Below are positions 19,135 to 41,347 of a stretch of 64,000 nucleotides of DNA, piece after piece. The DNA is from Anaerotignum propionicum DSM 1682 (GTDB taxonomy: Bacteria; Bacillota; Clostridia; Lachnospirales; Anaerotignaceae): positions 1-64,000 of the forward strand of contig NZ_CP014223.1 in NCBI RefSeq assembly GCF_001561955.1, given 5' to 3'. The position numbers and the translations under genes were made by a program. Under the pieces are notes generated by a model. The model made no database searches, was not told where the DNA came from, and saw nothing but the letters and a program-made list of their open reading frames with translations. Each line of letters begins with the position of its first letter. The first letter of the stretch is position 1.

Positions 19135-19377
19135 GGCAAAGCGTGTGGCGAATATTCGCCCATAGGAAAGCTAAGTTTTCTGTATTTCTTCAGAGAGTCG
19201 GCGTTTGGTGCGAGCCGATGAAACAAGGAAAATGCTCCACTTTCCCAGCTGCCGATGAAAGTCGGAAGGGTAAGCCCTATATCGCTGTTTAAAGAGGTTC
19301 GAAAATTTTTCGGGCAATCTGGGTGGCAACGCGGGAAATACTCTCGTCCCTGTTTTTTATGGGATCGGGGGTTTTTT
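19135..19377 (+). ncRNA. T-box leader for serine
   Basis: The leader carries GGGTGGCAACGCGGG (19321-19335), the T-box antiterminator sequence. Stem I has the paired arms GGAAAG and TTTTC (19165-19180) facing GAAAA and CTTTCC (19228-19245). Within the specifier loop TGCTCCA, the triplet TCC at 19236-19238 is a serine codon followed by a purine. The antiterminator bulge TGGC (19324-19327) matches a tRNA ending GCCA, as expected for tRNA-Ser with discriminator G. A G-rich terminator stem with a T7 run ends near 19377. Uncharged tRNA-Ser should allow serS transcription. Confidence 0.93.
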
Positions 19378-21117: not shown

Positions 21118-21224
21118 TTATATCACGGATAAAATCAAATTTATAAGTTGGTATGACTTTTGGCTTATATAGCTGATACAAAATTTATTATGTTATAATT
21201 AGTTTTAAACTAAAAATCAAAGTT

Positions 21225-21347
21225 TTATAGGGTTCCGCAGTTTAAAATTGATAACTGGTCAGGTCCGAGATAAAACGCACAGTTTGCTGTGTACACGGAG
21301 GGATAAAAGCCTGGGAGATATTAAAAAATATCTCTTAGGCTTTTTTT
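21225..21347 (+). ncRNA. Guanidine-I (ykkC class) riboswitch with terminator
   Basis: The conserved ykkC landmarks appear in order: GGGTTCCGCAG (21230-21240), ACTGGTCAGGTCCGAGA, then ACACGGAGGGATAAAAGCC starting at 21293 and the GGGAGA that follows. A terminator stem formed by AGCCTGGGAGATATT and AATATCTCTTAGGCT with a T7 run overlaps the 3' end, so guanidine binding should prevent termination. A TATAAT (21194-21199) lies upstream as the likely -10. The downstream gene is a Gdx-like exporter, which fits. Confidence 0.93.
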
Positions 21348-27171: not shown

Positions 27172-29700
27172 ATGAATACATTGCAGTTAAAAAAAGACCT
27201 TTATTGGGCAGGTATTTTAGATAAAGATTTACGGGTGTTTGATATAATTATGATGACGGAGTTTGGTACTACATATAACTCCTATATCTTAAAATGCGGA
27301 GATAAAACCGTGCTATTTGAAACAGCGAAAGCAAAGTTTTTTGATCAATATGAAAAAGCAATTTCTGAAAAGCTTGATGTAGAGAATATTGATTATATCG
27401 TTGTTGACCATACAGAGCCCGATCATGCAGGAAGCTTACAGAGTATTATTGAAAAATGCCCTCGGGCAAAAATTATTGCCACACCAACGGCCATCGGCTT
27501 TTTGAAGCAGATTGTAAATCGTGATTTTTATAGTATTGCCGTGAAGGATAAGGATGAGTTGCGCATTGGTGATAAAACCCTGCGTTTTTATTCCCTGCCA
27601 AATCTTCATTGGCCTGATAGTATGTATACTTACATTGTTGAGGATAAGGTTTTGGTGACCTGCGATTCCTTCGGCTCTCATTATGCCCATGACGGCATTT
27701 TAAGAAGCACTGTAACCGATGAAGAAGGCTATATGCGTGCGACAAAATATTATTTTGATAATATTTTAGGGCCGTTTAAACAGCCTTATATGACAGCAGC
27801 CTTGGATGTGGTAAAATCATTGGAAATTGATATGATTTGCACTGGCCATGGCCCTGTATTAGATAGCCATATTGAGGAACTGATTCAAATTTACGAGGAA
27901 TGGTGTAAGGTTCCTGTTAACGAGAAGAAAACCGTTGTAATGCCATATGTAAGTGCTTATGGCTATACTGGTGAGTTGGCAGAAAAAATTGCCGATGGTA
28001 TTCGTGAAAGCGGGGATATTGAGGTAAAGATATATGACATGGTAACGGCAGACCCCGGCGTGGTTCTAGGTGAAATCGCCCCCGCAGAAGGTATCCTGTT
28101 TGGCACACCTACCATTTTGGGAGATGCATTAAAGCCTATTTGGGATTTAGCCACCTCTTTGTACTCCCCAATTCATGGCGGTAAGCTTGCCAGTGCCTTT
28201 GGCAGTTACGGCTGGAGCGGCGAAGGCGTGCCTCATTTGATAGAGCGATTGAAACAGTTAAATATGCGTGTAATAGATGGTTACCGTGTACAATTTAAGC
28301 CTTCGGAGAAAGAGCTTTTGGAAGCCTTTGAGTTTGGCTATCGGTTTGGTCAAAAATTACAGCAAAAGGAAATGCCAAAAAAATCAGGCGCAAGGTCTAC
28401 GCTGGTGAAATGCTTGGTTTGTGGTGAAATTTTGGATTCTTCTTTGGATCGTTGCCCTGTTTGTGGTGTTGGGCCTGAAAACTTTGCACCAATTGAAGTT
28501 GAAACCGTTGCTTTCTACAAGGAAAGCTTGGAGAACTTTGTGATTCTTGGTGGCGGTACAGCGGCACTGAATGCGGCAAAAGCCATTCGAGAGCGGAATA
28601 AGACGGCAAAAATCACCATGGTTTCGGAAGAAAAGGAATTGCCTTATGATAGACCTATGCTGACAAAGAACATGTTTGGGGCATTAAGTGGTGATGCCAT
28701 TGCCAGCGAGGACAGAGCTTGGTATGAAGATAATCAGGTTATCATTAAATTAGGCACCAAGGTAGAGAAGCTGGATACCCAGAAGAAGGAAGCTCATCTT
28801 TCCAACGGCGAGGTATTGCCTTATGATAAGTGCGTTTATGCTTTGGGTGCAAATAGCTTTGTTCCTCCCATTAAAGGAAGGGATTTAGAAGGCGTAACCG
28901 CAATCAGAACCATTTCTGACGTGGAGAAGGTAAGTCACTGGGCGTTAAACGCAAAATCCGCTGTGGTAATCGGTGGTGGCGTATTAGGCCTTGAAGCTGC
29001 TTGGGAGTTGCGTAAAGAAAAGCTTCAGGTAACAGTTTTGGAAGGCGCACCTGTTTTGATGGCAGGAAAGATTGACAGCGAAGCAGTAGAAATGCTCACC
29101 AAGATTGCCAGTGACCAAGGCATTCGTATTGTAACCGGTGCAAAAATTTCCGAGCTTAGCGGAAATGGCAAGGTTGAAAGCGTTTTATTGGATGGCGGCG
29201 AAAGCATTCCTGCGGATATCGTGATTATCTCCACTGGTGTTCGTGCAAGCATCGCTTTGGCTAATGAGGCGGGTATTACCTGTGATCGTGCTGTTGTTGT
29301 GGATGAAGCAATGCGCACCAATTTGCCTGATGTTTATGCTTGTGGTGATTGTGCCCAGTATCAGGGTATGAATATTGCAATTTGGCCTGTGGCGTCTGAA
29401 ATGGGACGTATTGCAGGGGCAAATGCAGCAGGAGACAGCTTAACCTATAGCCAAAAGACCTATGGCGTAACTTTAGCGGCCCTGGGAACCATGTTGTATG
29501 CCATTGGTGACCCCGGCAGTAAGGAAGGTTTAACCTATAAAACCATGCAGGTAAAGGATGAAAGAAAGGGTATTTTGGAAAAATATTATTTCTTAAACAA
29601 TACAATTTGTGGTGCAATCCTCTTGGGAGATACCTCGAATCTTGCAAAGGTAACCGAAGCAATTGAGGAAATGAAAAGCTTTGGAGAATTTTTTAAATAA
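27172..29700 (+). CDS. Flavodiiron protein fused to rubredoxin-like and NADH:rubredoxin oxidoreductase domains
   Basis: This 842-residue protein looks like a self-contained oxygen (or NO) reductase. Residues about 1-250 form the metallo-beta-lactamase diiron domain, with ligands H80, E82, D84 and H85 in DHTEPDH and later His/Asp in LHWPDS, CDSFGSH and TGHGPV. Residues about 254-395 form the FMN flavodoxin domain (VSAYGYTGELAEKIADG). A rubredoxin-like knuckle pair (CLVC and CPVC) begins near residue 414. From about 453 a pyridine-nucleotide-disulfide oxidoreductase follows, with ILGGGTAALNAAKAI, GGGVLGLEAAWEL and VYACGDCA. The layout matches class F flavodiiron proteins. Confidence 0.93.
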   Translation: MNTLQLKKDLYWAGILDKDLRVFDIIMMTEFGTTYNSYILKCGDKTVLFETAKAKFFDQYEKAISEKLDVENIDYIVVDHTEPDHAGSLQSIIEKCPRAKIIATPTAIGFLKQIVNRDFYSIAVKDKDELRIGDKTLRFYSLPNLHWPDSMYTYIVEDKVLVTCDSFGSHYAHDGILRSTVTDEEGYMRATKYYFDNILGPFKQPYMTAALDVVKSLEIDMICTGHGPVLDSHIEELIQIYEEWCKVPVNEKKTVVMPYVSAYGYTGELAEKIADGIRESGDIEVKIYDMVTADPGVVLGEIAPAEGILFGTPTILGDALKPIWDLATSLYSPIHGGKLASAFGSYGWSGEGVPHLIERLKQLNMRVIDGYRVQFKPSEKELLEAFEFGYRFGQKLQQKEMPKKSGARSTLVKCLVCGEILDSSLDRCPVCGVGPENFAPIEVETVAFYKESLENFVILGGGTAALNAAKAIRERNKTAKITMVSEEKELPYDRPMLTKNMFGALSGDAIASEDRAWYEDNQVIIKLGTKVEKLDTQKKEAHLSNGEVLPYDKCVYALGANSFVPPIKGRDLEGVTAIRTISDVEKVSHWALNAKSAVVIGGGVLGLEAAWELRKEKLQVTVLEGAPVLMAGKIDSEAVEMLTKIASDQGIRIVTGAKISELSGNGKVESVLLDGGESIPADIVIISTGVRASIALANEAGITCDRAVVVDEAMRTNLPDVYACGDCAQYQGMNIAIWPVASEMGRIAGANAAGDSLTYSQKTYGVTLAALGTMLYAIGDPGSKEGLTYKTMQVKDERKGILEKYYFLNNTICGAILLGDTSNLAKVTEAIEEMKSFGEFFK

Positions 29701-29853: not shown

Positions 29854-30393
29854 TTAGTAATTTTGGGAAGCCAAACGGAAATAGGACTGAGGGTGGTTGC
29901 AAACGGGACAGAGTCCAGGAGCATCCTTACCAACATGTCTGTGACCACAGTTTTCACACTGCCATACGCTTTCTTCCTCTTTTGAAAAAACTGCACCAGT
30001 CTTTACATTTTCTAAAAGCTGGCGATATCTTTCTTCGTGTTCCTTTTCAATCTTTGCTACTGCTTCAAAAAGATAAGCAATACGGTCAAAGCCTTCTTCT
30101 TTTGCTTCTTTTGCAAAGTTTGCATACATATCTGTCCATTCATAGTTTTCGCCCATCGCTGCGTCCAGAAGGTTTTCTGCTGTGGAAGGCACTGTGCCAC
30201 CGTGTAACAGCTTAAACCAAATTTTTGCATGTTCCTTTTCATTGCCGGCAGTTTCTAAGAAAAGAGCAGCAATTTGCTCATAGCCTTCTTTTTTTGCCAC
30301 ACTTGCATAGTATGTATATTTATTTCTTGCCTCAGATTCACCTGCAAATGCGGTTTTTAAATTTGCTTCAGTTTTAGAGCCTTTCAGTTCCAT
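29854..30393 (-). CDS. rbr: Rubrerythrin
   Basis: Rubrerythrin is an NADH-linked (via rubredoxin) peroxide reductase of anaerobes. The N-terminal four-helix domain contains the diiron ligands in [15 protein letters not shown] and [10 protein letters not shown], and in the second pair around [12 protein letters not shown]. The C-terminal rubredoxin domain has CENCGH and CPVCNHPQ. Length is 179 residues. GGAGGTG precedes the ATG. It converges on the flavodiiron gene and has its own strong promoter. Confidence 0.96.
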
Positions 30394-30664: not shown

Positions 30665-33600
30665 TTAAATTTCAATGATACCTTCGAAGTCCTTGCGGGC
30701 ATCACCGGTCATGTTAATATTGTTATCATCACAGTGAATAATCAAATCTCCACCACGAAGTTTTACAGTAATGTCCTGCTTATCGGGGCAATGTCCCAAA
30801 GCAACTGCCGCCGCAGCTACAGCGCAAGCACCTGTGCCACAGGCCATGGTTTCGCCAATACCTCTTTCCCATACCCGCATACGCAAGGTTGTGCGGTCTT
30901 CCACGGAAGCAAAGGAAATATTCGCCCGTTCGGGGAAGAAAGGCGCATGCTCAAGCATAGGACCAACTTCCTCCAGAGGAATATATTCCACATCCTCTGT
31001 GAAAATCACACAGTGGGGGTTACCCATGGAAAGGCAGGTAATAAAGTATTCCTTGTTGCCCACAGTGACTGCTTTGTGAATCACAGCTTCTTCTCCCAAG
31101 GTAACGGGAACGGCCTTAGGGCTGAAGTCAGCCTTGCCCATTTGTACCAATACGGAGTATACTTCATTTTCACGGACAAATAGTTCTAATTGTTTCACGC
31201 CGTTTCCTGTTTCAATGGTGACGTTTTCTGATTGTATCATATGGTTATCATACAGATACTTTGCAACACAGCGGATAGGGTTTCCTGCAACTGCGGACTC
31301 AGTACCGTCAGCGTTAAACATACGCATTTTTGCGTCGGCTATGGTAGAAGGCTCGATGAGAACAATGCCGTCACCACCGATGCTGTTACGACGGCTGGAA
31401 AGCCATACACTTAAAAACTCAGGATTTTTGATTTCCTGTTCAAAACAATTGAAGTAGATATAATCGTTGCCACTGCCACGCATTTTTGTAAAATGGAGCT
31501 TTTCTTTTTCTCTGGGCAAATGGGCAATATCAATAAGCTCCATATTATTCAGGTGGAATCCGCTGGATAATGCATTTACCAAGGCATTTGTGGTATCAAT
31601 GCTGGTGAGGCAGAAAATACCACGTTCCGTTGCCTTTCTGCGCAACTTCACGCTAGCAAGCTGGGGCAGCGTGCTTTTATTGGAGGTGGAAACCATATAC
31701 TGAATTTTTCCGCTTTCCAAAAGCTCCATAATTTCATCAATGCCTTCGACCATAGTAGGCAGCTCCGTTACAGGAATATCATATTTTTTCAGCTCATAAG
31801 CTGTACCTTCTGTTGCATATAGCTGGAAGCCTAATTCATGCAATTTTCTTGCAGGATGAACCACTTCTACTTTATCTCGCTTTTTCACTGTCAGCAACAC
31901 GCCGCCACGCTGTTCCATGTGGTAGCCTGCTCCTGCTAAGCCTTTATAGATTGCTTCTTCCAAAGTACGCCCAATGCCCAGAACTTCCCCTGTGGACTTC
32001 ATTTCAGGCCCAAGGTGGGTATCCACATCTGTCAGCTTCTCAAAGGAGAATACAGGCACTTTTACTGCGGAGAAGAGGGATTGACGGAATAAGCCTGTAC
32101 CATAAGGCAAGTCCGAAAGTTTTTTGCCCAGCATTACCTGCGTAGCGATATCAACCACGGGTAAGCCTGTTACCTTGCTGATATAAGGGATGGTTCTGGA
32201 AGCACGAGGGTTGGCTTCTATAATATAGATTTCATTCTCAAAAATAACATACTGTATATTAATCAGGCCTCTGGTTTCCAATGCCAAAGCCAATTTTTCC
32301 GTTGCTTCAATCAAACGGCGGGTAAGGGGGCCGCTGAGGTTCCAAGCGGGATAAACGGCGATAGAGTCACCACTGTGAACACCGGCACGTTCCACATGCT
32401 CCATAATTCCCGGAATGAGCACTGCTTCGCCATCGCAGATTGCGTCAACCTCAACCTCAGTACCCATGAGATATTTGTCTACCAAGATAGGGTTTTCAAT
32501 GCCCCCAGCCAGAATGATATCCATATAGCGGGCTACTTCCTCATCAGAAAAGGCGATAATCATGTTTTGTCCACCTAAAACATAGGAGGGACGTACCAAA
32601 ACGGGGTAGCCAAGCTGATTTGCTGCGGTTAATGCTTCTTCTTTTGTCATAACACCAAAGCCCTTTGGTCTTGACATCTGCAATTCCTCAAGAATGGCAT
32701 CGAATTTTTCTCTGTCCTCCGCCGCATCAATGCTTTGAGCAGAGGTTCCTAAAATACGTACACCTGCTTCGGAGAGAGCCTTTGTCAGCTTAATTGCCGT
32801 TTGTCCGCCGAAGGCAACTACAACGCCGTAAGGTTTTTCTGTTGCAATAATATCCATCACATCCTCAGGGGTGAGGGGTTCAAAATAAAGACGGTCGGCA
32901 GTGTCAAAGTCGGTGGATACGGTTTCGGGGTTATTGTTTACCATAACCACATCGTAGCCTTCCTCTTTTAATGTCCAAACACAGTGAACGGAAGCGTAGT
33001 CAAACTCGATACCCTGACCAATACGGATAGGGCCGGAACCGAAAACGATAACCGTCTTCTTTCCACTGTTATGGTTTTCGATGAATTCTGCGGCTTCATT
33101 TTCTGCGTCATAGGTAGCGTAAAAATAAGGGGTTTGAGCCGCAAATTCCGCCGCACAGGTATCAACCATTTTATAAACAGAGTTTCTGTGGGGATGGGTT
33201 TGTCCCGAAAGGCTGAAAATGGTCTTATCCAAAAAGCCTGTATTCTTTGCCAATACATATAATTCTTCGGTGAGTGTCTCTTTTGCTAAGCGTTGTTCAA
33301 TCTCTAAAATATTCATGAGCTTGCCCAAGAACCACTCATCAATGAGGGTAATTTTATGAACCTCTTCAATGGAAATGCCACGTTTCAACGCCTCGTATAC
33401 CACAAACAGTCTGCGGTCTGTGGCTTCATCCAGCATTTCTCTGATTTCATCAGTAGTATTTTCCTCTAGAATAGCTAAATTCAGCGTATTCATGGAGATT
33501 TCCGCTCCACGAACGGCCTTCAAAAGAGCCTGCTCAAAGGTAGGTGCAATTGACATAACTTCCCCCGTAGCCTTCATTTGAGTGCCAAGCTTTCTTTTTG

Positions 33601-34702
33601 CATAAACAAATTTATCAAAAGGCCATTTTGGCAGTTTTACAACCACATAGTCTAAGGTTGGCTCGAAGAATGCGCTGGTTTTCCCTGTTACGGCGTTTTC
33701 GATTTCCCCAAGGGTCAGACCAACGGCAATCAGTGCCGCAACCTTTGCAATGGGATAGCCTGTTGCTTTGGATGCTAGGGCGGAGGAGCGGGAAACACGG
33801 GGGTTTACCTCAATTACCGCATAGCGGAAGCTCTCGGGGTCTAAAGCAAACTGAACGTTACAACCGCCTTCTACCTGTAATTCGGTAATAATATCCAAAG
33901 CGGCAGTACGGAGCATTTGATATTCCTTATCCGCCAAAGTAACGGCAGGGGCGATAACGATAGAATCCCCTGTATGCACACCAACGGGATCAAAGTTTTC
34001 CATGGAACATACAGCGATTACGTTTCCGTCGCCATCACGCATAACTTCAAATTCAATTTCTTTCCAACCGGAGATACACTGCTCAACTAAGATTTGATGA
34101 ATGGGAGAAGCCTCCAAACCACTGCGGGCAATTTCCGATAATTCGGCTTTGTTTTTGGCAATACCGCCGCCGCTTCCCCCTAAAGTAAAGGCAGGACGTA
34201 CAATAACGGGATAACCAATATAATCCGCAAAGTTTAGGGCACTTTCAATATCTGTAACTACTTCAGAAGGGATGCAGGGCTGATTCAGCTTTTCCATGGT
34301 TTCCTTAAACATCAGGCGGTCTTCAGCTTTATCAATGGTTTCTAAACGAGATCCTAACAGAAGGACGTCTTCTTGCTCCAAAAATCCTTCTTTTGCCAAT
34401 TGCATTGACAGGGTTAAGCCGTTTTGACCGCCCAACGTGGAAAGGAGGCCGTCAGGCTTCTCTTTTTGAATAATTCTTTTAATAACATCAATTTTTAACG
34501 GTTCAATATAAATTTTATCTGCAATGGCATTATCCGTCATAATGGTAGCAGGGTTGGGGTTAATCAAGATAACCTCAAGACCTAAGGACTTCAACGCACG
34601 GCATGCTTGGGTGCCGGCATAGTCAAATTCAGCCGCTTGCCCAATGACAATTGGGCCGGAGCCAATAATCATAACACGTTTCAATTTTTTATTCAGCGGC
34701 AT
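30665..34702 (-). CDS. carB: Carbamoyl-phosphate synthase large subunit fused to a DapF-like epimerase domain
   Basis: Residues 1-1067 are a complete CarB: carboxy-phosphate ATP-grasp half (about 1-400), oligomerisation region, carbamoyl-phosphate ATP-grasp half (about 550-935) and an MGS-type allosteric domain. CarB makes carbamoyl phosphate from ammonia channelled from CarA. Residues about 1068-1345 (nucleotides 31501-30668) are a full-length diaminopimelate epimerase fold starting LHFTKMRGSGNDYIYF, joined in frame without a stop. The second catalytic Cys is present (ACGTGAC, Cys1288). At the first site the expected MCGNGIRC reads VAGNPIRC, so Cys is Ala1139 and a Gly is Pro1142. Epimerase activity is therefore doubtful. 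The start overlaps carA by 14 bases. Confidence 0.95.
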   Translation of the reverse strand: MPLNKKLKRVMIIGSGPIVIGQAAEFDYAGTQACRALKSLGLEVILINPNPATIMTDNAIADKIYIEPLKIDVIKRIIQKEKPDGLLSTLGGQNGLTLSMQLAKEGFLEQEDVLLLGSRLETIDKAEDRLMFKETMEKLNQPCIPSEVVTDIESALNFADYIGYPVIVRPAFTLGGSGGGIAKNKAELSEIARSGLEASPIHQILVEQCISGWKEIEFEVMRDGDGNVIAVCSMENFDPVGVHTGDSIVIAPAVTLADKEYQMLRTAALDIITELQVEGGCNVQFALDPESFRYAVIEVNPRVSRSSALASKATGYPIAKVAALIAVGLTLGEIENAVTGKTSAFFEPTLDYVVVKLPKWPFDKFVYAKRKLGTQMKATGEVMSIAPTFEQALLKAVRGAEISMNTLNLAILEENTTDEIREMLDEATDRRLFVVYEALKRGISIEEVHKITLIDEWFLGKLMNILEIEQRLAKETLTEELYVLAKNTGFLDKTIFSLSGQTHPHRNSVYKMVDTCAAEFAAQTPYFYATYDAENEAAEFIENHNSGKKTVIVFGSGPIRIGQGIEFDYASVHCVWTLKEEGYDVVMVNNNPETVSTDFDTADRLYFEPLTPEDVMDIIATEKPYGVVVAFGGQTAIKLTKALSEAGVRILGTSAQSIDAAEDREKFDAILEELQMSRPKGFGVMTKEEALTAANQLGYPVLVRPSYVLGGQNMIIAFSDEEVARYMDIILAGGIENPILVDKYLMGTEVEVDAICDGEAVLIPGIMEHVERAGVHSGDSIAVYPAWNLSGPLTRRLIEATEKLALALETRGLINIQYVIFENEIYIIEANPRASRTIPYISKVTGLPVVDIATQVMLGKKLSDLPYGTGLFRQSLFSAVKVPVFSFEKLTDVDTHLGPEMKSTGEVLGIGRTLEEAIYKGLAGAGYHMEQRGGVLLTVKKRDKVEVVHPARKLHELGFQLYATEGTAYELKKYDIPVTELPTMVEGIDEIMELLESGKIQYMVSTSNKSTLPQLASVKLRRKATERGIFCLTSIDTTNALVNALSSGFHLNNMELIDIAHLPREKEKLHFTKMRGSGNDYIYFNCFEQEIKNPEFLSVWLSSRRNSIGGDGIVLIEPSTIADAKMRMFNADGTESAVAGNPIRCVAKYLYDNHMIQSENVTIETGNGVKQLELFVRENEVYSVLVQMGKADFSPKAVPVTLGEEAVIHKAVTVGNKEYFITCLSMGNPHCVIFTEDVEYIPLEEVGPMLEHAPFFPERANISFASVEDRTTLRMRVWERGIGETMACGTGACAVAAAAVALGHCPDKQDITVKLRGGDLIIHCDDNNINMTGDARKDFEGIIEI

Positions 34703-35777
34703 TTTCGTTCCCTCCCATTAAAGACATGAATTGTTCAAACAAAAAGTTGGTATCCTTGGGTCCACCGCAAGCTTCGGGGTGAAACTGAACGGAGAAAGCG
34801 GGGATATCGGTATATTCGACTCCTTCGCAGGTGTTATCGTTTACATGGGTAAAGGACAGCACGGCGGAAGGAGGCAATGTTTCGGATTTAATGGCATAGC
34901 CATGGTTTTGGCTGGTAATATACAGTCTGCCTGTTGGGGTATAGCGTACAGGTTGATTTGCACCTCTGTGACCGTATTTCAATTTTGTGCTGATAGCACC
35001 CTTAGCCAATGCCAACATTTGGTGTCCAAGGCAGATACCGAAGATTGGTGTTTTGCTCTGGGCAGTCTTGCCGATATTTTCGATAATGCTTTTGTTATCC
35101 GAAGGGTCTCCTGGGCCGTTAGAAAGGAGGATTCCGTCAGGTTTTAAGCTCAAAATTTCCTCTGCTGTGGTTTGAGCGGGAACAACGGTGAGCTTACAGT
35201 CTCTTTTGATTAATTCGTCCCCCATGTTTTTCTTATAGCCAAAGTCCCAAAGCACAACATGCTTTTTCCCTGTAGGATTTAGTACATAAGCCTCTTTGCA
35301 GGTTACCTTATCCACACTGCTGCTTAAAGCGGCATTGGAAAGGCTTCTTGCAAAGGCCTCCATATCTTGGGGAATTTCGTTTACAATAGCAGCATTCATT
35401 ACGCCGTATTCACGAATAATTTTTGTTAAGGCGCGAGTATCCAAATCGCAAAGGCCGATTACCCCTTGCTGTTCCAGATATGCCCCTAAGGTGCCTTCGT
35501 TTCTAAAGTTAGAGGGCAAATCGCAGATATTTCTCACGATATATGCAGAAAGGGAGGGAGATTGACTTTCAAAATCATCGGGTATTACCCCATAATTTCC
35601 AATCAACGGGAAGGTTTGCACTACTATTTGACCGTGATAGCTGGGATCGGTCAAGGTTTCCAGATAACCTTCCATTCCTGTTGTAAAAACCAACTCTGCC
35701 GTAATTTCGCCTTCTTTACCAAAGCGTGTTGCGGGAAATACTTTTCCGTTTTGCAGAACCAAATATGCTTTTTTCAT
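34689..35777 (-). CDS. carA: Carbamoyl-phosphate synthase small subunit
   Basis: CarA is the glutaminase that feeds ammonia to CarB. The N-terminal CPSase_sm domain (about 1-130, with YLETLTDPSYHGQIV) is followed by a class I glutamine amidotransferase domain, with the nucleophile Cys in FGICLGHQMLALAKGA and the His-Glu pair in VQFHPEACGGPKD. Length is 362 residues. It overlaps carB by 14 bases and follows argF by 16 bases, so it is the arginine-operon copy of the synthase. Confidence 0.97.
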   Translation of the reverse strand: MKKAYLVLQNGKVFPATRFGKEGEITAELVFTTGMEGYLETLTDPSYHGQIVVQTFPLIGNYGVIPDDFESQSPSLSAYIVRNICDLPSNFRNEGTLGAYLEQQGVIGLCDLDTRALTKIIREYGVMNAAIVNEIPQDMEAFARSLSNAALSSSVDKVTCKEAYVLNPTGKKHVVLWDFGYKKNMGDELIKRDCKLTVVPAQTTAEEILSLKPDGILLSNGPGDPSDNKSIIENIGKTAQSKTPIFGICLGHQMLALAKGAISTKLKYGHRGANQPVRYTPTGRLYITSQNHGYAIKSETLPPSAVLSFTHVNDNTCEGVEYTDIPAFSVQFHPEACGGPKDTNFLFEQFMSLMGGNENAAE

Positions 35778-35793
35778 CGTTTTTCACATCCTA

Positions 35794-36699
35794 TCAGCCC
35801 ATTAATTTTACGAGAATTGCTTTCTGCGCATGAAGACGGTTTTCCGCTTCATCAATAATTTCGTCTGCGTGTGCCTCAAAAACATCAGCGGTAATTTCTT
35901 CGCCTCTATGGGCAGGCAGGCAGTGTTGAACCATACAGCCGTTGTTGGTCAGTGCCATCAATTCTGAATTGATTTGGTAGCCATCAAATGCCTTAGCACG
36001 AATAGCCTGTTCTTCCTCTTGTCCCATGGATGCCCAAACGTCGGTAATCACAACATCGGCATTTTTTACCGCAACCTTAGGGTCATCAGTGAGGATAAAT
36101 TTATTGCCGTATTCCTTAGCAAAATCAAGAATCCTGCCATCAGGACGATAGCCTTCGGGGCAAGCAATGCTTACTGTCATTCCAACCTTTAAGCCACCTA
36201 CGATTAAGGAGTTGGCCATATTGTTTCCATCGCCGATGTAACACATCTTAAGCCCTTCTAATTTTCCCTTATGCTCACGGATGGTTTGCAAGTCCGCCAT
36301 AACCTGACAAGGGTGACAAAAGTCGGTCAAGCCATTGATAATGGGGATTGAGCCGTATTTTGCAAGGGTTTCCACTTCTTCTTGTTCAAAGGTACGAATC
36401 ATGATGCCGTTTAAATAGCGAGAGAGCACACGGGCTGTATCCTCGGTGGGTTCTCCGCGGCCAATTTGGGCATCCTTGGAGCTGATGAAAAGGGCATGTC
36501 CGCCTAACTGATACATTCCTGTTTCAAAGGAAACACGGGTACGGGTAGAGGATTTCTCAAAAATCATGCCTAAGGTTTTGCCTTTTAAGAAATGATGTTC
36601 CTTACCCTCCTTCACATATTTTTTCAATTGATCAGCCAAGTCTAAAAGCTCGATAATTTCTTCTGTTGTACAATCTAACAGCTTTAAAAAGTGCTTCAT
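35794..36699 (-). CDS. argF: Ornithine carbamoyltransferase
   Basis: This enzyme joins ornithine and carbamoyl phosphate to citrulline. The carbamoyl-phosphate loop SSTRTRVSFETG, the HPCQVMADL segment and the ornithine-side HCLPAHRGEEI are all present. Length is 301 residues from the ATG at 36699 (MKHFLKLLDC). An in-frame ATG at 36708 is one base from the AGAGAGG ribosome site, so the second ATG is preferred. carA and carB follow, placing carbamoyl phosphate supply beside its consumer. Confidence 0.95.
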   Translation of the reverse strand: MKHFLKLLDCTTEEIIELLDLADQLKKYVKEGKEHHFLKGKTLGMIFEKSSTRTRVSFETGMYQLGGHALFISSKDAQIGRGEPTEDTARVLSRYLNGIMIRTFEQEEVETLAKYGSIPIINGLTDFCHPCQVMADLQTIREHKGKLEGLKMCYIGDGNNMANSLIVGGLKVGMTVSIACPEGYRPDGRILDFAKEYGNKFILTDDPKVAVKNADVVITDVWASMGQEEEQAIRAKAFDGYQINSELMALTNNGCMVQHCLPAHRGEEITADVFEAHADEIIDEAENRLHAQKAILVKLMG

Positions 36700-36749
36700 T
36701 CGTTTCATGCCTCTCTTTCTAGTGCTCCTGGGAAATAGTTAATATACAG

Positions 36750-36856: not shown

Positions 36857-38029
36857 TTACATTGTTTTTAATACATTTGCTAGTATGGAAAGACCTTTTT
36901 CCAATTCTTTTCTGGTAATGGTTAAAGGTGGTAAAAGTCTTACCTTAGTTTTTGCAGAAAGTACCAATAAACCGTTATCCAAGCATTTTTGGATAACTTC
37001 TTTTGCATCTATATCTAGGCTTACGCCAAGCATCATGCCCATGCCTGCAACATCGGTTACATGGGGCATAGTCAAAATCTGATTTTTAATAAATTCGCCT
37101 TTTTTCTGAACCTCAGCCAGAAAATCATCGTTCAAGCGTTTCAAAATTTCAATAGAGCCAGCACAAACAACGAGATTGCCGCCGAAGGTGGAGCCATGAT
37201 CTCCTGCAGACAAGCATTCCTCGGTTTTTTCGCCGAATAATACGCCCCCAATGGGCAAGCCGCCGCCAAGACCCTTTGCGCAGGATACCAAGTCAGGTTG
37301 AATGCCAAATTGCTGATAGCTGAAGAAGGAACCGGTTCTGCCGATGCCTGTCTGAACCTCATCTACAATGAAAAGAATATCCTTTTCTTTACAAGCGTTA
37401 TATACAGCCGTTACATACTCCTGATTCAAAGGAAGAACGCCGCCTTCTCCCTGAACCATTTCCATAATAACAGCGCATACATCATCCGTCAATTTGGAAA
37501 GTGTATCTTCCAAATCATTTGCTTTTGCAAAAACAAGGCCGTCTACAAAGGGGAAGAAGTAGTTATGGTAGGTATCCTGACCAGTTGCAGAAAGGGTAGC
37601 CAAAGTTCTGCCATGGAAGGAATTTTCCAAAGCTACAATGGTGCTTCTACCTTTACCATATTTTAAGAAACTATACTTTTTTGCCGCTTTAAAAACGCCT
37701 TCATTTGCCTCGGCGCCGCTATTGGCAAAGAACATTTTTTTCATGCCGCTTTTCTCGCAGACCAATTTTGCAGCTTCCCCACAGGGAGCGGTATAGTATA
37801 GGTTTGAAGTATGCTGTAGTTTTTGAATCTGTGCAGTGACTGCTTCGATCCAGGCTTTATCGCAAAAGCCCAATGCGTTTACGCCGATACCGCTGGTCAT
37901 ATCTATATATTCTTTACCGTCTACATCATAGCAAGTGGCGTTTTTACCGTGGTCAAGAGCCACAGGGTAGCGGCCGTAGGTATGCATGATATAGTCGTCG
38001 TCTTGTTGTTTGATTTTTTCAAAGCTCAT
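36857..38029 (-). CDS. argD: Acetylornithine aminotransferase
   Basis: A PLP-dependent class III aminotransferase making N-acetylornithine from the semialdehyde, with glutamate as donor. Visible landmarks are NSGAEANEG for PLP phosphate binding, FHGRTLATLSATGQ, the IVDEVQTGIGRTG aspartate segment and the PLP lysine in SCAKGLGGGLPIGG. Length is 390 residues. The ATG at 38029 is nine bases behind AAGGAAG; the in-frame GTG at 38038 abuts that site. It lies between a repeat element and argF. Confidence 0.95.
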   Translation of the reverse strand: MSFEKIKQQDDDYIMHTYGRYPVALDHGKNATCYDVDGKEYIDMTSGIGVNALGFCDKAWIEAVTAQIQKLQHTSNLYYTAPCGEAAKLVCEKSGMKKMFFANSGAEANEGVFKAAKKYSFLKYGKGRSTIVALENSFHGRTLATLSATGQDTYHNYFFPFVDGLVFAKANDLEDTLSKLTDDVCAVIMEMVQGEGGVLPLNQEYVTAVYNACKEKDILFIVDEVQTGIGRTGSFFSYQQFGIQPDLVSCAKGLGGGLPIGGVLFGEKTEECLSAGDHGSTFGGNLVVCAGSIEILKRLNDDFLAEVQKKGEFIKNQILTMPHVTDVAGMGMMLGVSLDIDAKEVIQKCLDNGLLVLSAKTKVRLLPPLTITRKELEKGLSILANVLKTM

Positions 38030-38052
38030 TTGGTTCACCTTCCTTTTCTATA

Positions 38053-38274: not shown

Positions 38275-39132
38275 TCACTTCATAAACATGGTTCCAACGC
38301 CTTCGTCAGAGAACATTTCAATCAAGATGGAATGTACAATCCGGCCGTCTATCATGACCGCTTTTTCTACGCCGGATAATACGGACTTTTTTAGGCTCTT
38401 CACCTTGGGAATCATGCCGCCGCTGATAATCCCATCATTAATCAGTGTTTCCACTTCGTCTATTTTTACCACGGGTATCAAGGAGTTTTCGTCAGAAATA
38501 TCACGCATCAATCCTCTGATATCTGTAAGGGTAATAATATTCTCTGCTTGTAGCGCCGCCGCAATCTCTGCTGCCGCCGTATCCGCATTGATATTATAGG
38601 TCTGCCCTTTGCAATCGGTGCCAACAGTTGCAATCACAGGGATGTATCCGCTTTGTATCGCTTGGGTGATGGGTTCGGTGTTGATTTCTGTAATTTCTCC
38701 AACATATCCATAGTCCCCTTGGATTTTTTTTGCCTTAATCATTCCGCCGTCAATACCGCAAAGACCAATGGCCTTTCCCCCCAATTGCCCAATGAGGGAA
38801 ACAAGGTCTTTGTTGGTTTTTCCAGCTAGCACCATCTGCACAACCTCTGCGGTTTCCTCGTCGGTATACCGCAACCCATCTATGAAACGAGAGGGGATAT
38901 CTAGTTTTTTTAACATGCCACTGATTTCAGGACCGCCCCCATGCACCAGTACCACATGTATGCCTACTAAGGAGAGCAGAATAATGTCGCTCATCACTGC
39001 TTTTTTTAATTCTTGATGAATCATTGCATTGCCGCCGTATTTTATTACTACCGTTCTTCCTGTATATTTTTGTATATAAGGCAGTGCCGCCGTTAAAACC
39101 TTTGCCTTTATGTTGTTGCAGTCTGTAACCAT
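38275..39132 (-). CDS. argB: Acetylglutamate kinase
   Basis: ArgB phosphorylates N-acetylglutamate and is the usual arginine-feedback step. The amino acid kinase fold shows VVIKYGGNAM at the N-terminus, the LVHGGGPEIS glycine loop, the RFIDGLRYT segment and the NINADTAAAEIA substrate region. I place the start at ATG 39132, eight bases after GGGGAGG, which gives 285 residues. The longer frame from 39168 overlaps argJ and adds 12 residues. Confidence 0.95.
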   Translation of the reverse strand: MVTDCNNIKAKVLTAALPYIQKYTGRTVVIKYGGNAMIHQELKKAVMSDIILLSLVGIHVVLVHGGGPEISGMLKKLDIPSRFIDGLRYTDEETAEVVQMVLAGKTNKDLVSLIGQLGGKAIGLCGIDGGMIKAKKIQGDYGYVGEITEINTEPITQAIQSGYIPVIATVGTDCKGQTYNINADTAAAEIAAALQAENIITLTDIRGLMRDISDENSLIPVVKIDEVETLINDGIISGGMIPKVKSLKKSVLSGVEKAVMIDGRIVHSILIEMFSDEGVGTMFMK

Positions 39133-39148
39133 TTTTTCTGCCTCCCCA

Positions 39149-40363
39149 TCAGGTGCGGTAATCTCCATTGATTTTTACATAATCATAAGTTAGGTCGCAG
39201 CCCCACGCCGTAGCCGTGCCTTCTCCTTGGTTGAGTTCAACTTGAATATGAATTTCTTCTTCCAAAAGAATATTTTTTGCCACTTCTTCGTCAAAGGCAA
39301 CTCCAGCGCCATTTTCGCAAACGTGAATACTGCCTTTGGTTGAGGAAATATCAACAGAAATGGTGTCTACTTGAAAATCTCCTTCTGTATAGCCAATGGC
39401 ACAAAGAATACGTCCCCAGTTGGCATCTGCGCCAAACATTGCCGCTTTCGTTAAGCTGGAGGTAATGATGGATTTGGCAATTGCTTTTGCTAAAGGGGTA
39501 GTAGGTGCACCATTCACTGTGCATTCCATAAGCTTTGTAGCACCTTCACCATCCCCGGCAATTTTTTTAGCCATTGAAGTACAGATTTCCTTGATTACCG
39601 TTAAAAAGGCTTCAAATTCGGCACCTTCTGCCTCAATCATAGGGTTTTCAGCCATACCGTTTGCCATAATGGAAACCATATCGTTGGTGGAGGTATCCCC
39701 ATCAACGCTGACCATATTAAAGGTATCATCTACAGCTAATTTTAAGGCCTTATTTAGCATTGGGGTAGTAATTGCCGCATCTGTTGTTAAGAATCCCAGC
39801 ATGGTTGCCATGTTGGGATGAATCATGCCGCTTCCCTTTGCCATTGCGCCAATGGTCACTGTTTTGCCGCCAATTTCAATGGTATAAGCTTCTTCCTTTG
39901 CTTTGGTATCAGTGGTCATAATGGCTTCTGCCGCCAAAGCACCGCCGTCTGCTGTGAGTTGAGGTGCCAATTCCTTGATGCCCTTTGCAATAGGCTCAAG
40001 GGGTAGCACAGCACCGATAACCCCTGTGGAAGCAATGATAATATCCTCGGGGGAGAGCCCTAAGGCCTCCGCTGTCATTTGGCACATTGCCTCGGCCTTT
40101 TCCACGCCGTCGGCGTTACAGGTGTTTGCGTTTCCGCTGTTGCAAATCATAGCCTGAGCCATTCCGTTTGCAATGTTGTTTTTGGTCACGGTAATGGGAG
40201 CACCGTAAACTTTATTTTGTGTATAAACTGCCGCCGCCGTGCAAGGGGTTTGGCTGTAAATCATAGCTAAGTCTTTTTTCATCTGGCTTGCACGCACGCC
40301 GCAGTGTAAACCGCCGGCGAGGAAGCCCTTAGGTGCAGTAACACCACCTGTTATTTTCTCCAT
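39149..40363 (-). CDS. argJ: Bifunctional ornithine acetyltransferase / N-acetylglutamate synthase
   Basis: ArgJ moves the acetyl group from N-acetylornithine to glutamate, recycling it, and in bifunctional forms can also use acetyl-CoA. It is made as a proenzyme cleaved before the Thr of MATMLGF, which is present in KGSGMIHPNMATMLGFLTTDA as two adjoining segments (about residues 176-196). Length is 404 residues. AAAGGAGG precedes the ATG. With ArgJ present, no separate argA or argE is needed, matching the operon content. Confidence 0.96.
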   Translation of the reverse strand: MEKITGGVTAPKGFLAGGLHCGVRASQMKKDLAMIYSQTPCTAAAVYTQNKVYGAPITVTKNNIANGMAQAMICNSGNANTCNADGVEKAEAMCQMTAEALGLSPEDIIIASTGVIGAVLPLEPIAKGIKELAPQLTADGGALAAEAIMTTDTKAKEEAYTIEIGGKTVTIGAMAKGSGMIHPNMATMLGFLTTDAAITTPMLNKALKLAVDDTFNMVSVDGDTSTNDMVSIMANGMAENPMIEAEGAEFEAFLTVIKEICTSMAKKIAGDGEGATKLMECTVNGAPTTPLAKAIAKSIITSSLTKAAMFGADANWGRILCAIGYTEGDFQVDTISVDISSTKGSIHVCENGAGVAFDEEVAKNILLEEEIHIQVELNQGEGTATAWGCDLTYDYVKINGDYRT

Positions 40364-40380: not shown

Positions 40381-41310
40381 TTATATCAATGATTCGGTTT
40401 CATCTAAACCGAGGACAATATTCATATTTTGCACTGCCGCTCCCGATGCACCTTTACCTAAGTTATCAAATACACTGGTAATGGTCATTCTTTGGTCGTT
40501 TCCTTCGATATAAAGGGTTAAACCATTGCTGTCTGCCAATAAATTGGATGCCAGAAAACCGCTTTCCTCATGGGCGATTTTTATAAAATTAGAGTCTTTA
40601 TAAAAATCCTGAAAGTAAGCAATCAGTTCTGCCTTTGTAACCTTTTTCAAAAAAAGGTCTGTATGCAGAGGGATGCAGGTTTCCATACCCCGATAGAAAT
40701 CGCAAACAATTGGCGTAAATACCGGTGGAGCGGAAATTCCTGTTACATACTGCATTTCGGGCAAGTGCTTATGGGTTTGATTTAAGCCATATTGCCTTGG
40801 GCTCTCAAATGCATCAGGTCTATCAGAAGCTTCATATTCCTGAATCATTCCTTTGCCGCCACCACTGTAGCCTGTGATGCTGTGAGCGGAGAAGGGGTAG
40901 TCAGGGCTTAGAATACCCAGCTTTACCAAGGGATATGCCGCCGCAATAAAGCCTGTTGCATGACACCCGGGGTTGGCTATACGCTTTGCTTTTGCAATCT
41001 CCTGTCTATGAGCGGGAGAAAGCTCCGGAAAGCCGTAAGTCCAAAGGGGGTTGGTTCTATGGGCGGTACTGGCATCAATGATGCATACGTTGGGGTTCTC
41101 CACCAGAAAAACCGCTTCCTTCGCCGCCTCATCGGGTAAACAAAGGAACACAACGTCTGCACTGTTCATCAGTCTTTTTCTTTCAGCCTCATCCTTCCTC
41201 AGCTCTTCGCTGATTAGCATAAGCTCTATATTCGGATGATGTTCCAGACGCTGACGCAGCTGCAAGCCTGTTGTACCTACTTGGCCGTCTATGTAAACTT
41301 TATATTTCAT
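40381..41310 (-). CDS. argC: N-acetyl-gamma-glutamyl-phosphate reductase, type 2
   Basis: ArgC reduces acetylglutamyl phosphate to the semialdehyde. The start KYKVYIDGQVGTTGLQLRQRL is the short type 2 ArgC form. The active-site Cys lies in ANPGCHATGFIAAAYPL, and the SITGYSGGGKGM loop is present. Length is 309 residues from the ATG at 41310, nine bases after AAAAGGGG. It is the first gene of the arginine operon and is preceded by a sigma-A promoter and an ARG-box-like site. Confidence 0.94.
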   Translation of the reverse strand: MKYKVYIDGQVGTTGLQLRQRLEHHPNIELMLISEELRKDEAERKRLMNSADVVFLCLPDEAAKEAVFLVENPNVCIIDASTAHRTNPLWTYGFPELSPAHRQEIAKAKRIANPGCHATGFIAAAYPLVKLGILSPDYPFSAHSITGYSGGGKGMIQEYEASDRPDAFESPRQYGLNQTHKHLPEMQYVTGISAPPVFTPIVCDFYRGMETCIPLHTDLFLKKVTKAELIAYFQDFYKDSNFIKIAHEESGFLASNLLADSNGLTLYIEGNDQRMTITSVFDNLGKGASGAAVQNMNIVLGLDETESLI

Positions 41311-41347
41311 AGCCATGTTCCCCTTTTCAAACAATTTATTTTTTTAT

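Follow-up and report, generated by a model that had tools for sequence, protein, structure and literature searches.

Why should the large subunit of a carbamoyl-phosphate synthase (CPS) end in the fold of a diaminopimelate (DAP) epimerase? The question is raised by a single open reading frame (ORF) of Anaerotignum propionicum DSM 1682, in which carB runs directly into dapF (carB::dapF; Table 1). The ORF lies in a stretch of 64,000 nucleotides, hereafter the window, which corresponds to positions 1 to 64,000 of the forward strand of contig NZ_CP014223.1 (RefSeq assembly GCF_001561955.1). The reading preferred here, to which a probability of roughly one half is given, is that the product is an arginine-dedicated CPS large subunit carrying a conserved C-terminal tail that is derived from DapF, is not an epimerase, and probably senses a ligand, in what would be a regulatory role.

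The fusion protein and its catalytic residues

The CarB part was matched at full length by the NCBIfam model TIGR01369 (residues 4-1045, 1409.6 bits against a cut-off of 1027) and aligned to E. coli CarB chains with an E value of 1.1e-299, and the DapF domain was matched by TIGR00652 (residues 1070-1343, 256 bits against a cut-off of 114.65). Pfam gave the same order, with the MGS allosteric domain at residues 947-1033 followed by DAP_epimerase. The uninterrupted 1345-codon frame reported in the first-pass annotation, with its join directly behind MGS, was borne out by the ORF itself, by both family models, and by recurrence in 8/8 genomes of the genus that were searched; the complete DapF fold also reported there holds as a fold, which is full length, but not for the catalytic pair.

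The catalytic cysteines of E. coli DapF are Cys73 and Cys217 (PMC4227774). In the fused domain the first of these sites (Cys1) is occupied by Ala1139, within the context NADGTESAVAGNPIRC, and the second (Cys2) is kept as Cys1288, within ETMACGTGAC. With alanine in place of the first catalytic cysteine, the domain should no longer carry out normal two-base epimerisation of LL-diaminopimelate (LL-DAP), as follows from the chemistry of DapF. The two cysteines that mark a DapF epimerase are thus not both present, and the chain does not hold the catalytic residues of both enzymes that a bifunctional CarB-DapF would have, the DapF pair being incomplete. Judged by its residues, the ORF is a CarB by family membership, and a DapF by fold and not by catalytic residues. 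The Asn, His, Glu and Arg residues of the DAP-binding pocket, numbered below as in H. influenzae DapF, are all present.

An AlphaFold2 model of MGS and DapF, built from 48 fused sequences, had a mean predicted local distance difference test score (pLDDT) of 90.4 and a predicted template modelling score (pTM) of 0.71, and was less confident at residues about 1042-1061 (pLDDT 63-72); the model does not fix how the two domains lie relative to each other. Foldseek gave DapF itself as the best Protein Data Bank match of the modelled DapF part (2otn, E value 1.8e-36) and also matched the ligand-bound structure 9mro (root-mean-square deviation 1.9). The fused domain is like DapF (TIGR00652; 2otn, 1gqz, 9mro) in fold, full length and pocket residues, and differs in having alanine for Cys1, in being fused to CarB, and in sharing the genome with a separate, complete DapF. 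Compared with E. coli CarB (TIGR01369; 1bxr/1jdb), the fusion has all catalytic domains, MGS and an adjacent carA, whereas it adds the C-terminal DapF, has threonine for the Lys993 that binds uridine monophosphate (UMP), and lies in an arginine operon.

Loss of the first catalytic cysteine

Among 128 distinct fused domains, 77 had both cysteines and 51 lacked Cys1 (replaced by Ala in 29, Ser in 13 and Gly in 9), one of these 51 lacking Cys2 as well. Cys1 was lost in 8/8 Anaerotignum genomes and present in 54/54 distinct stand-alone DapF domains that were fetched. On a tree built without the Cys1 column and its neighbours, the Cys1 state required at least 10 changes, many of the branches being weak, and only 4 independent pairs stood on well-supported branches. 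The pocket was kept in the 51 Cys1-lost domains as follows: Asn64, Asn75, Asn157, His159 and Glu208 in all 51, Arg209 and Cys217 in 50, Asn190 in 49, and Asn11 in 46. In many other Clostridia the fused domain, by its residues, looks like a working epimerase.

Selection was estimated as omega, the ratio of nonsynonymous to synonymous rates. Across the 8 Anaerotignum genomes the stand-alone DapF gave 0.097, the fused DapF 0.042 and CarB 0.037; these ratios are rough, since synonymous changes approach saturation (mean pS 0.59-0.67). The Cys1-less fused domain of Anaerotignum is under strong purifying selection and is not decaying. Three clades that keep Cys1 gave 0.032, 0.014 and 0.104 for DapF, compared with 0.032, 0.031 and 0.075 for CarB.

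A second DapF was found in 36/51 Cys1-lost and 19/77 Cys1-kept genomes (Fisher p 5e-7, kinship ignored); with a single Anaerotignum kept, the first count became 29/44, and among genomes at least 90% complete, again with a single Anaerotignum, the counts were 14/19 and 9/32. These copy numbers come partly from incomplete genomes, completeness being unknown for 50 of them. DAP dehydrogenase, for which 80 genomes were searched, did not by itself separate the classes (above the cut-off in 28/45 Cys1-lost and 27/35 Cys1-kept genomes). Either a second DapF or the dehydrogenase was present in 42/45 Cys1-lost genomes, the other three being two of 65% completeness and one of unknown completeness. Neither was found in 6/35 Cys1-kept genomes, four of them 93-97% complete, and the fused domain is therefore the sole visible route to meso-DAP there; the difference between 3/45 and 6/35 was not significant (p 0.17).

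Operon and other gene copies

The fusion is the last gene in the order argC-argJ-argB-argD-argF-carA-carB::dapF (Table 1). The genome, a single contig of 3.12 Mb that is 99.9% complete, holds a separate, intact dapF elsewhere (304 bits; 280 residues, with the two catalytic cysteines in place), a gene that the first-pass annotation had proposed to look for, and a second, unfused carB of 1057 residues in a pyr operon, of which carB, pyrC and pyrB were confirmed by family search and the remaining pyr names were read from sequence. The fusion is therefore assigned to the arginine branch, and the genome has another copy of each of its two domains. A search of this genome for DAP dehydrogenase gave no match.

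Three other accounts of the locus were rejected. An assembly artefact or frameshift read-through was ruled out by the one-contig genome and the presence of the fusion in every genome of the genus that was searched, the fused gene as sole dapF of the genome was ruled out by the separate complete dapF, and an internal start giving free DapF was discarded for A. propionicum because the linker has no methionine at the old dapF start, where Glu1067 stands.

A promoter-like site, TTGACT-16-TATAAT at 41375-41348, lies directly upstream of argC; it is a consensus match only, and such matches numbered 28 as against 21.9 in shuffles. Genome-wide, only the carA of this operon scored above the cut-off of the CPS small-subunit family. 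The pyr carB operon (C1:2450855-2459756) is without carA, so that two CarB stand against one CarA above cut-off genome-wide; the arginine-operon carA may serve both CarB proteins, or the pyr enzyme may use ammonia.

Table 1. Coordinates of the fusion, its domains and key residues, and the arginine operon in the window
Feature	Position	Strand	Description
carB::dapF fusion ORF	30665..34702	minus	1345 codons, without internal stop or frameshift
CarB part	31568..34702	minus	residues 1-1045; two ATP-grasp halves, oligomerisation domain, MGS
MGS allosteric domain	31604..31864	minus	residues 947-1033; Pfam PF02142
Thr983	31754..31756	minus	Thr where E. coli CarB has the UMP-binding Lys993, by alignment
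Linker	31496..31567	minus	residues 1046-1069
DapF domain	30674..31495	minus	residues 1070-1343
Ala1139	31286..31288	minus	first catalytic Cys site of DapF (E. coli Cys73); alignments to solved DapF chains and of 128 fused domains
Cys1288	30839..30841	minus	second catalytic Cys of DapF (E. coli Cys217), kept; same two alignments
carA	34689..35777	minus	TIGR01368; 14-base overlap with carB
argF, ornithine carbamoyltransferase	35794..36708	minus	TIGR00658, 424 bits
argD	36857..38038	minus	TIGR00707, 431 bits
argB	38275..39168	minus	TIGR00761, 256 bits
argJ	39149..40363	minus	TIGR00120, 472.5 bits
argC	40381..41334	minus	TIGR01851, 364 bits

The MGS allosteric site and arginine linkage

In E. coli, inhibition by UMP and its binding depend critically on Thr977 and Lys993 of MGS (PMC6245113). 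In the A. propionicum fusion the Thr977 equivalent is kept and the Lys993 equivalent is threonine, which leaves the pair for nucleotide control incomplete. Among fusions with enough upstream sequence, the Lys993 equivalent was kept in 56/56 distinct Cys1-kept proteins and in 11/29 Cys1-lost proteins. It was threonine in 8/8 Anaerotignum, and His, Asn or Arg, with an adjacent deletion, at 8 loci of the sister group. Besides the Lys993 equivalent, the unfused pyr CarB of A. propionicum retains Asn and Thr at positions 1015 and 1016. Almost every fusion of either Cys1 class has Ser at 1015, which makes that position uninformative between the classes. Arginine genes lay nearby in 15/23 Cys1-lost and 1/52 Cys1-kept loci (75 fused loci with flanks, some of the flanks short), and all 15 arginine-linked Cys1-lost loci fell in one clade of 17 fused proteins that includes A. 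propionicum. Outside this clade, two Cys1-lost proteins (G052 and G160) were also without the lysine.

Distribution and ancestry of the fusion

The fusion was present in 8/8 Anaerotignum genomes searched, that of A. propionicum included. The nearest named relative found, Anaerotignum neopropionicum DSM-3847, was 91% identical in the DapF part. The DapF part of the seven others was 78-92% identical to that of A. propionicum, and one copy stops at a contig end after 1175 residues, the 7/7 others being full-length. Counting as fused an open frame of at least 640 residues around the DapF match, the fusion was found in 18/58 genomes of the family, at least 31/392 of the order sample and at least 50/391 of the class sample, these three samples overlapping. 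Other carriers with a confirmed fused frame include Clostridium sp. N3C, Neglectibacter timonensis, Anaeromassilibacillus senegalensis, and many metagenome-assembled genomes (MAGs) of Ruminococcus and Oscillospiraceae. The fusion extends beyond the genus and is common among Clostridia; homologues uniformly encoded as two separate genes, the case named as refuting in the first-pass annotation, are not what is found among genomes of the genus, order and class. The first-pass annotation had regarded the pairing as non-standard; this stands insofar as no description of the fusion or of its Cys1-less form was found in open PubMed Central text, subscription literature lying outside the search, but the pairing is widespread and no oddity of the strain.

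The fusions of other Clostridia (Ruminococcus MAGs, Neglectibacter, Clostridium sp. N3C) have the same domain order, a similar linker and, in the available flanks, carA upstream; they differ in that both cysteines are present in 77/128, in that the fused domain is often the only DapF found, and in that the MGS lysine is kept in all 56 of the cysteine-complete proteins compared. The linker is short and similar across fusions, with the motif (N/S)TELVDINxxR in many, whether Cys1 is kept or not. A methionine at the old dapF start, just before an FxKM motif, occurs in 42/77 cysteine-complete and 7/51 Cys1-lost fusions, and a purine-rich stretch of at least 4 bases lies upstream of it in 20 of those 42, a count made without a chance control; internal dapF starts are possible in these other fusions.

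On a FastTree tree of the 128 fused and 45 labelled stand-alone domains (one of the latter being the masked fused row of G420), the fused or stand-alone label needed 11 changes, as against 40 in shuffles, and 5 of the 11 were forced by well-supported branches. The stand-alone dapF of Anaerotignum falls in a different region of the tree from the fused domain, which therefore did not arise by recent copying of the local gene.

The 128 domains were drawn from 80 genomes that had been chosen for a listed fused frame and from the genomes of 50/80 loci, minus 2 identical sequences. Of those loci, five from Anaerotignum repeated G001-G007 and were omitted; L099 (a repeat of G355), L132, L141, L151, L153, L154, L159 and L161 were also omitted, although fused. 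The only pair in the set above 98.5% identity was G414/G420. The G420 row has masked bases at the junction and its second record was excluded, giving 54 stand-alone domains and not 55. Some fused frames were cut by contig ends or by a broken frame (G564).

Further arrangements of dapF were observed. In three genomes that also hold a fused carB::dapF (L279 in G413, L280 in G487 and L281 in G754), a second, unfused carB is followed at once by a different dapF, itself unfused, whose start codon lies within about 30 bases of the carB stop; dapF was therefore tied to carB more than once. At L282 (G450), L283 (G023) and L284 (G160), the second dapF lies immediately behind a pyrG-like (CTP synthase) gene and ahead of a dapL-like gene, both names being read from sequence without a family search, and its place behind the pyrG-like gene may be another tie of dapF to pyrimidine genes. 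At L144, L160 and L132 a stand-alone dapF comes after the fused carB::dapF on the same strand, about 0.2 to 1.7 kb further on, and all have both cysteines.

Neighbouring features

Elsewhere in the window, a forward-strand ORF of 842 residues (27172-29700) combines an ODP/metallo-beta-lactamase-like domain, a flavodoxin and a rubredoxin-reductase-like flavoprotein, and is likely an oxygen-detoxifying fusion; a rubrerythrin gene stands beside it (29854-30393, minus). A guanidine-I riboswitch (21216-21319, forward, 86.1 bits) and a T-box leader (19152-19354, forward, 93.9 bits against a gathering score of 93) were also present.

Proposed explanation and its alternatives

The preferred reading concerns a CarB-DapF fusion that in many Clostridia still looks like one with a working epimerase. 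In Anaerotignum Cys1 was lost, with a separate, intact dapF present, so that LL-DAP should no longer be epimerised, and the Cys1-less domain was kept under strong purifying selection with its amino-acid-binding pocket intact. The neighbouring MGS also lost its UMP lysine, which the unfused CarB of the pyr operon retains. The fused domain would now bind DAP or a similar amino acid without turnover, and ligand binding or DapF dimerisation would affect how the synthase oligomerises or how active it is, taking over from nucleotide control. A precedent is the E. coli DapF-RppH pair, in which DapF with both cysteines changed to alanine still binds and activates RppH (PMC4227774), so a DapF fold can work without catalysis; there too the fold acts on another enzyme without catalytic cysteines, but as a separate protein, and on RppH and not CPS. 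The influence on regulation suggested in the first-pass annotation thereby gains indirect support from the Cys1 loss, the purifying selection and the loss of the MGS lysine, the role itself being one that we infer. A broader version is offered tentatively, with less confidence: that DapF was repeatedly turned, by loss of Cys1, into an allosteric DAP-sensing domain of CPS that tunes carbamoyl phosphate for the arginine pathway to the cell-wall and lysine pathway, and that replaced nucleotide control by MGS in the Anaerotignum-type clade.

Several observations weigh against these readings. Loss of the lysine occurred in 16/17 members of the arginine-linked clade (G397, of the same clade as Anaerotignum, keeps it), and since the arginine linkage too sits mostly in that clade, the link between Cys1, lysine and arginine genes is mainly the history of one clade; lysine loss and arginine linkage may reflect one historical event. 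The 11 Cys1-lost proteins that keep the lysine, among the 29 compared, also count here. The association of Cys1 loss with a second dapF has 4 well-supported independent pairs, too few for a tree-corrected test, and a second DapF was not seen in 15/51 Cys1-lost genomes. A second clade without Cys1 shows DapF evolving faster than its CarB (omega 0.077 against 0.039). The ligand and the effect of the domain on CPS are proposals, and conservation of the pocket is equally expected of a one-base enzyme.

An alternative that carries some weight, though we consider it unlikely, is that the DapF domain is a structural tail that aids folding or oligomerisation of the large subunit through the DapF dimer interface, the ligand being irrelevant. 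Effectors move CPS between monomeric, dimeric and tetrameric forms (PMC6245113), and the linkers of the fusions are short and alike; a structural tail would, however, have no need for an intact amino-acid pocket and a second cysteine across 51 divergent sequences.

Those same features fit a one-base enzyme, an account we hold improbable, in which Cys217 is kept, Cys73 has become a small residue, and the domain deprotonates one stereoisomer in another reaction (elimination, dehydration or one-way deprotonation). Cys2 is kept in 50/51 Cys1-lost domains and the pocket is nearly invariant. The substrate would perhaps be an amino acid of the arginine pathway: O-ureidoserine resembles citrulline, and the DapF-fold racemase 7vdy acts on O-ureidoserine. 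In other cofactor-independent racemases, a Cys-to-Thr change yields a dehydratase or a one-way enzyme (PMC8142540). Trans-3-hydroxyproline dehydratase and one-cysteine racemase relatives likewise have one catalytic cysteine replaced in a DapF-like fold (6r76 and 4k7g among the Foldseek matches), but the replacement there is Thr and not Ala, Gly or Ser, and the substrates are others (PMC8142540). In the fused domains the replacements are mostly Ala or Gly (38/51, the rest Ser), without an acid-base group, the pocket residues of DAP type are unchanged, and no arg or pyr gene occurs in the available flanks of 8 Cys1-lost loci outside the arginine-linked clade.

It is very improbable that the domain is still a DAP epimerase, slow or unusual, serving as a backup. 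Its TIGR00652 score is above the cut-off and some other genomes yielded no DapF apart from the fused domain, but alanine is unable to act as the second acid-base, A. propionicum has its complete separate dapF, 42 of the 45 Cys1-lost genomes searched encode another DapF or the dehydrogenase, and the mutant with both cysteines changed to alanine, a double and not a single change, did not epimerise LL-DAP (PMC4227774). Strongly disfavoured, and least probable of all, is a redundant relic decaying after the gain of a second dapF: such a copy accompanies 36 of the 51 Cys1-lost domains, but the codon analysis puts the fused domain (0.042) below the separate dapF of the same genomes (0.097), the loss is one-sided (Cys1 in 51 distinct domains, Cys2 in one), and the domain is full-length in all 7 genus genomes without a contig-end cut.

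Significance

The CarB and DapF families are both old; their fusion and its Cys1-less form appear new to the literature, within open PubMed Central text. For annotation they carry a warning, as Cys1-less domains score far above the DapF cut-off despite the missing catalytic residue. CPS is the standard textbook example of allosteric control in an enzyme common to arginine and pyrimidine synthesis, and a widespread fusion with repeated, one-sided cysteine loss under selection suggests a control link between CPS and the cell-wall and lysine pathway. The natural series of fusions with both cysteines, with Cys1 lost, and with both Cys1 and the MGS lysine lost offers a direct test of how an enzyme may have turned into a sensor.

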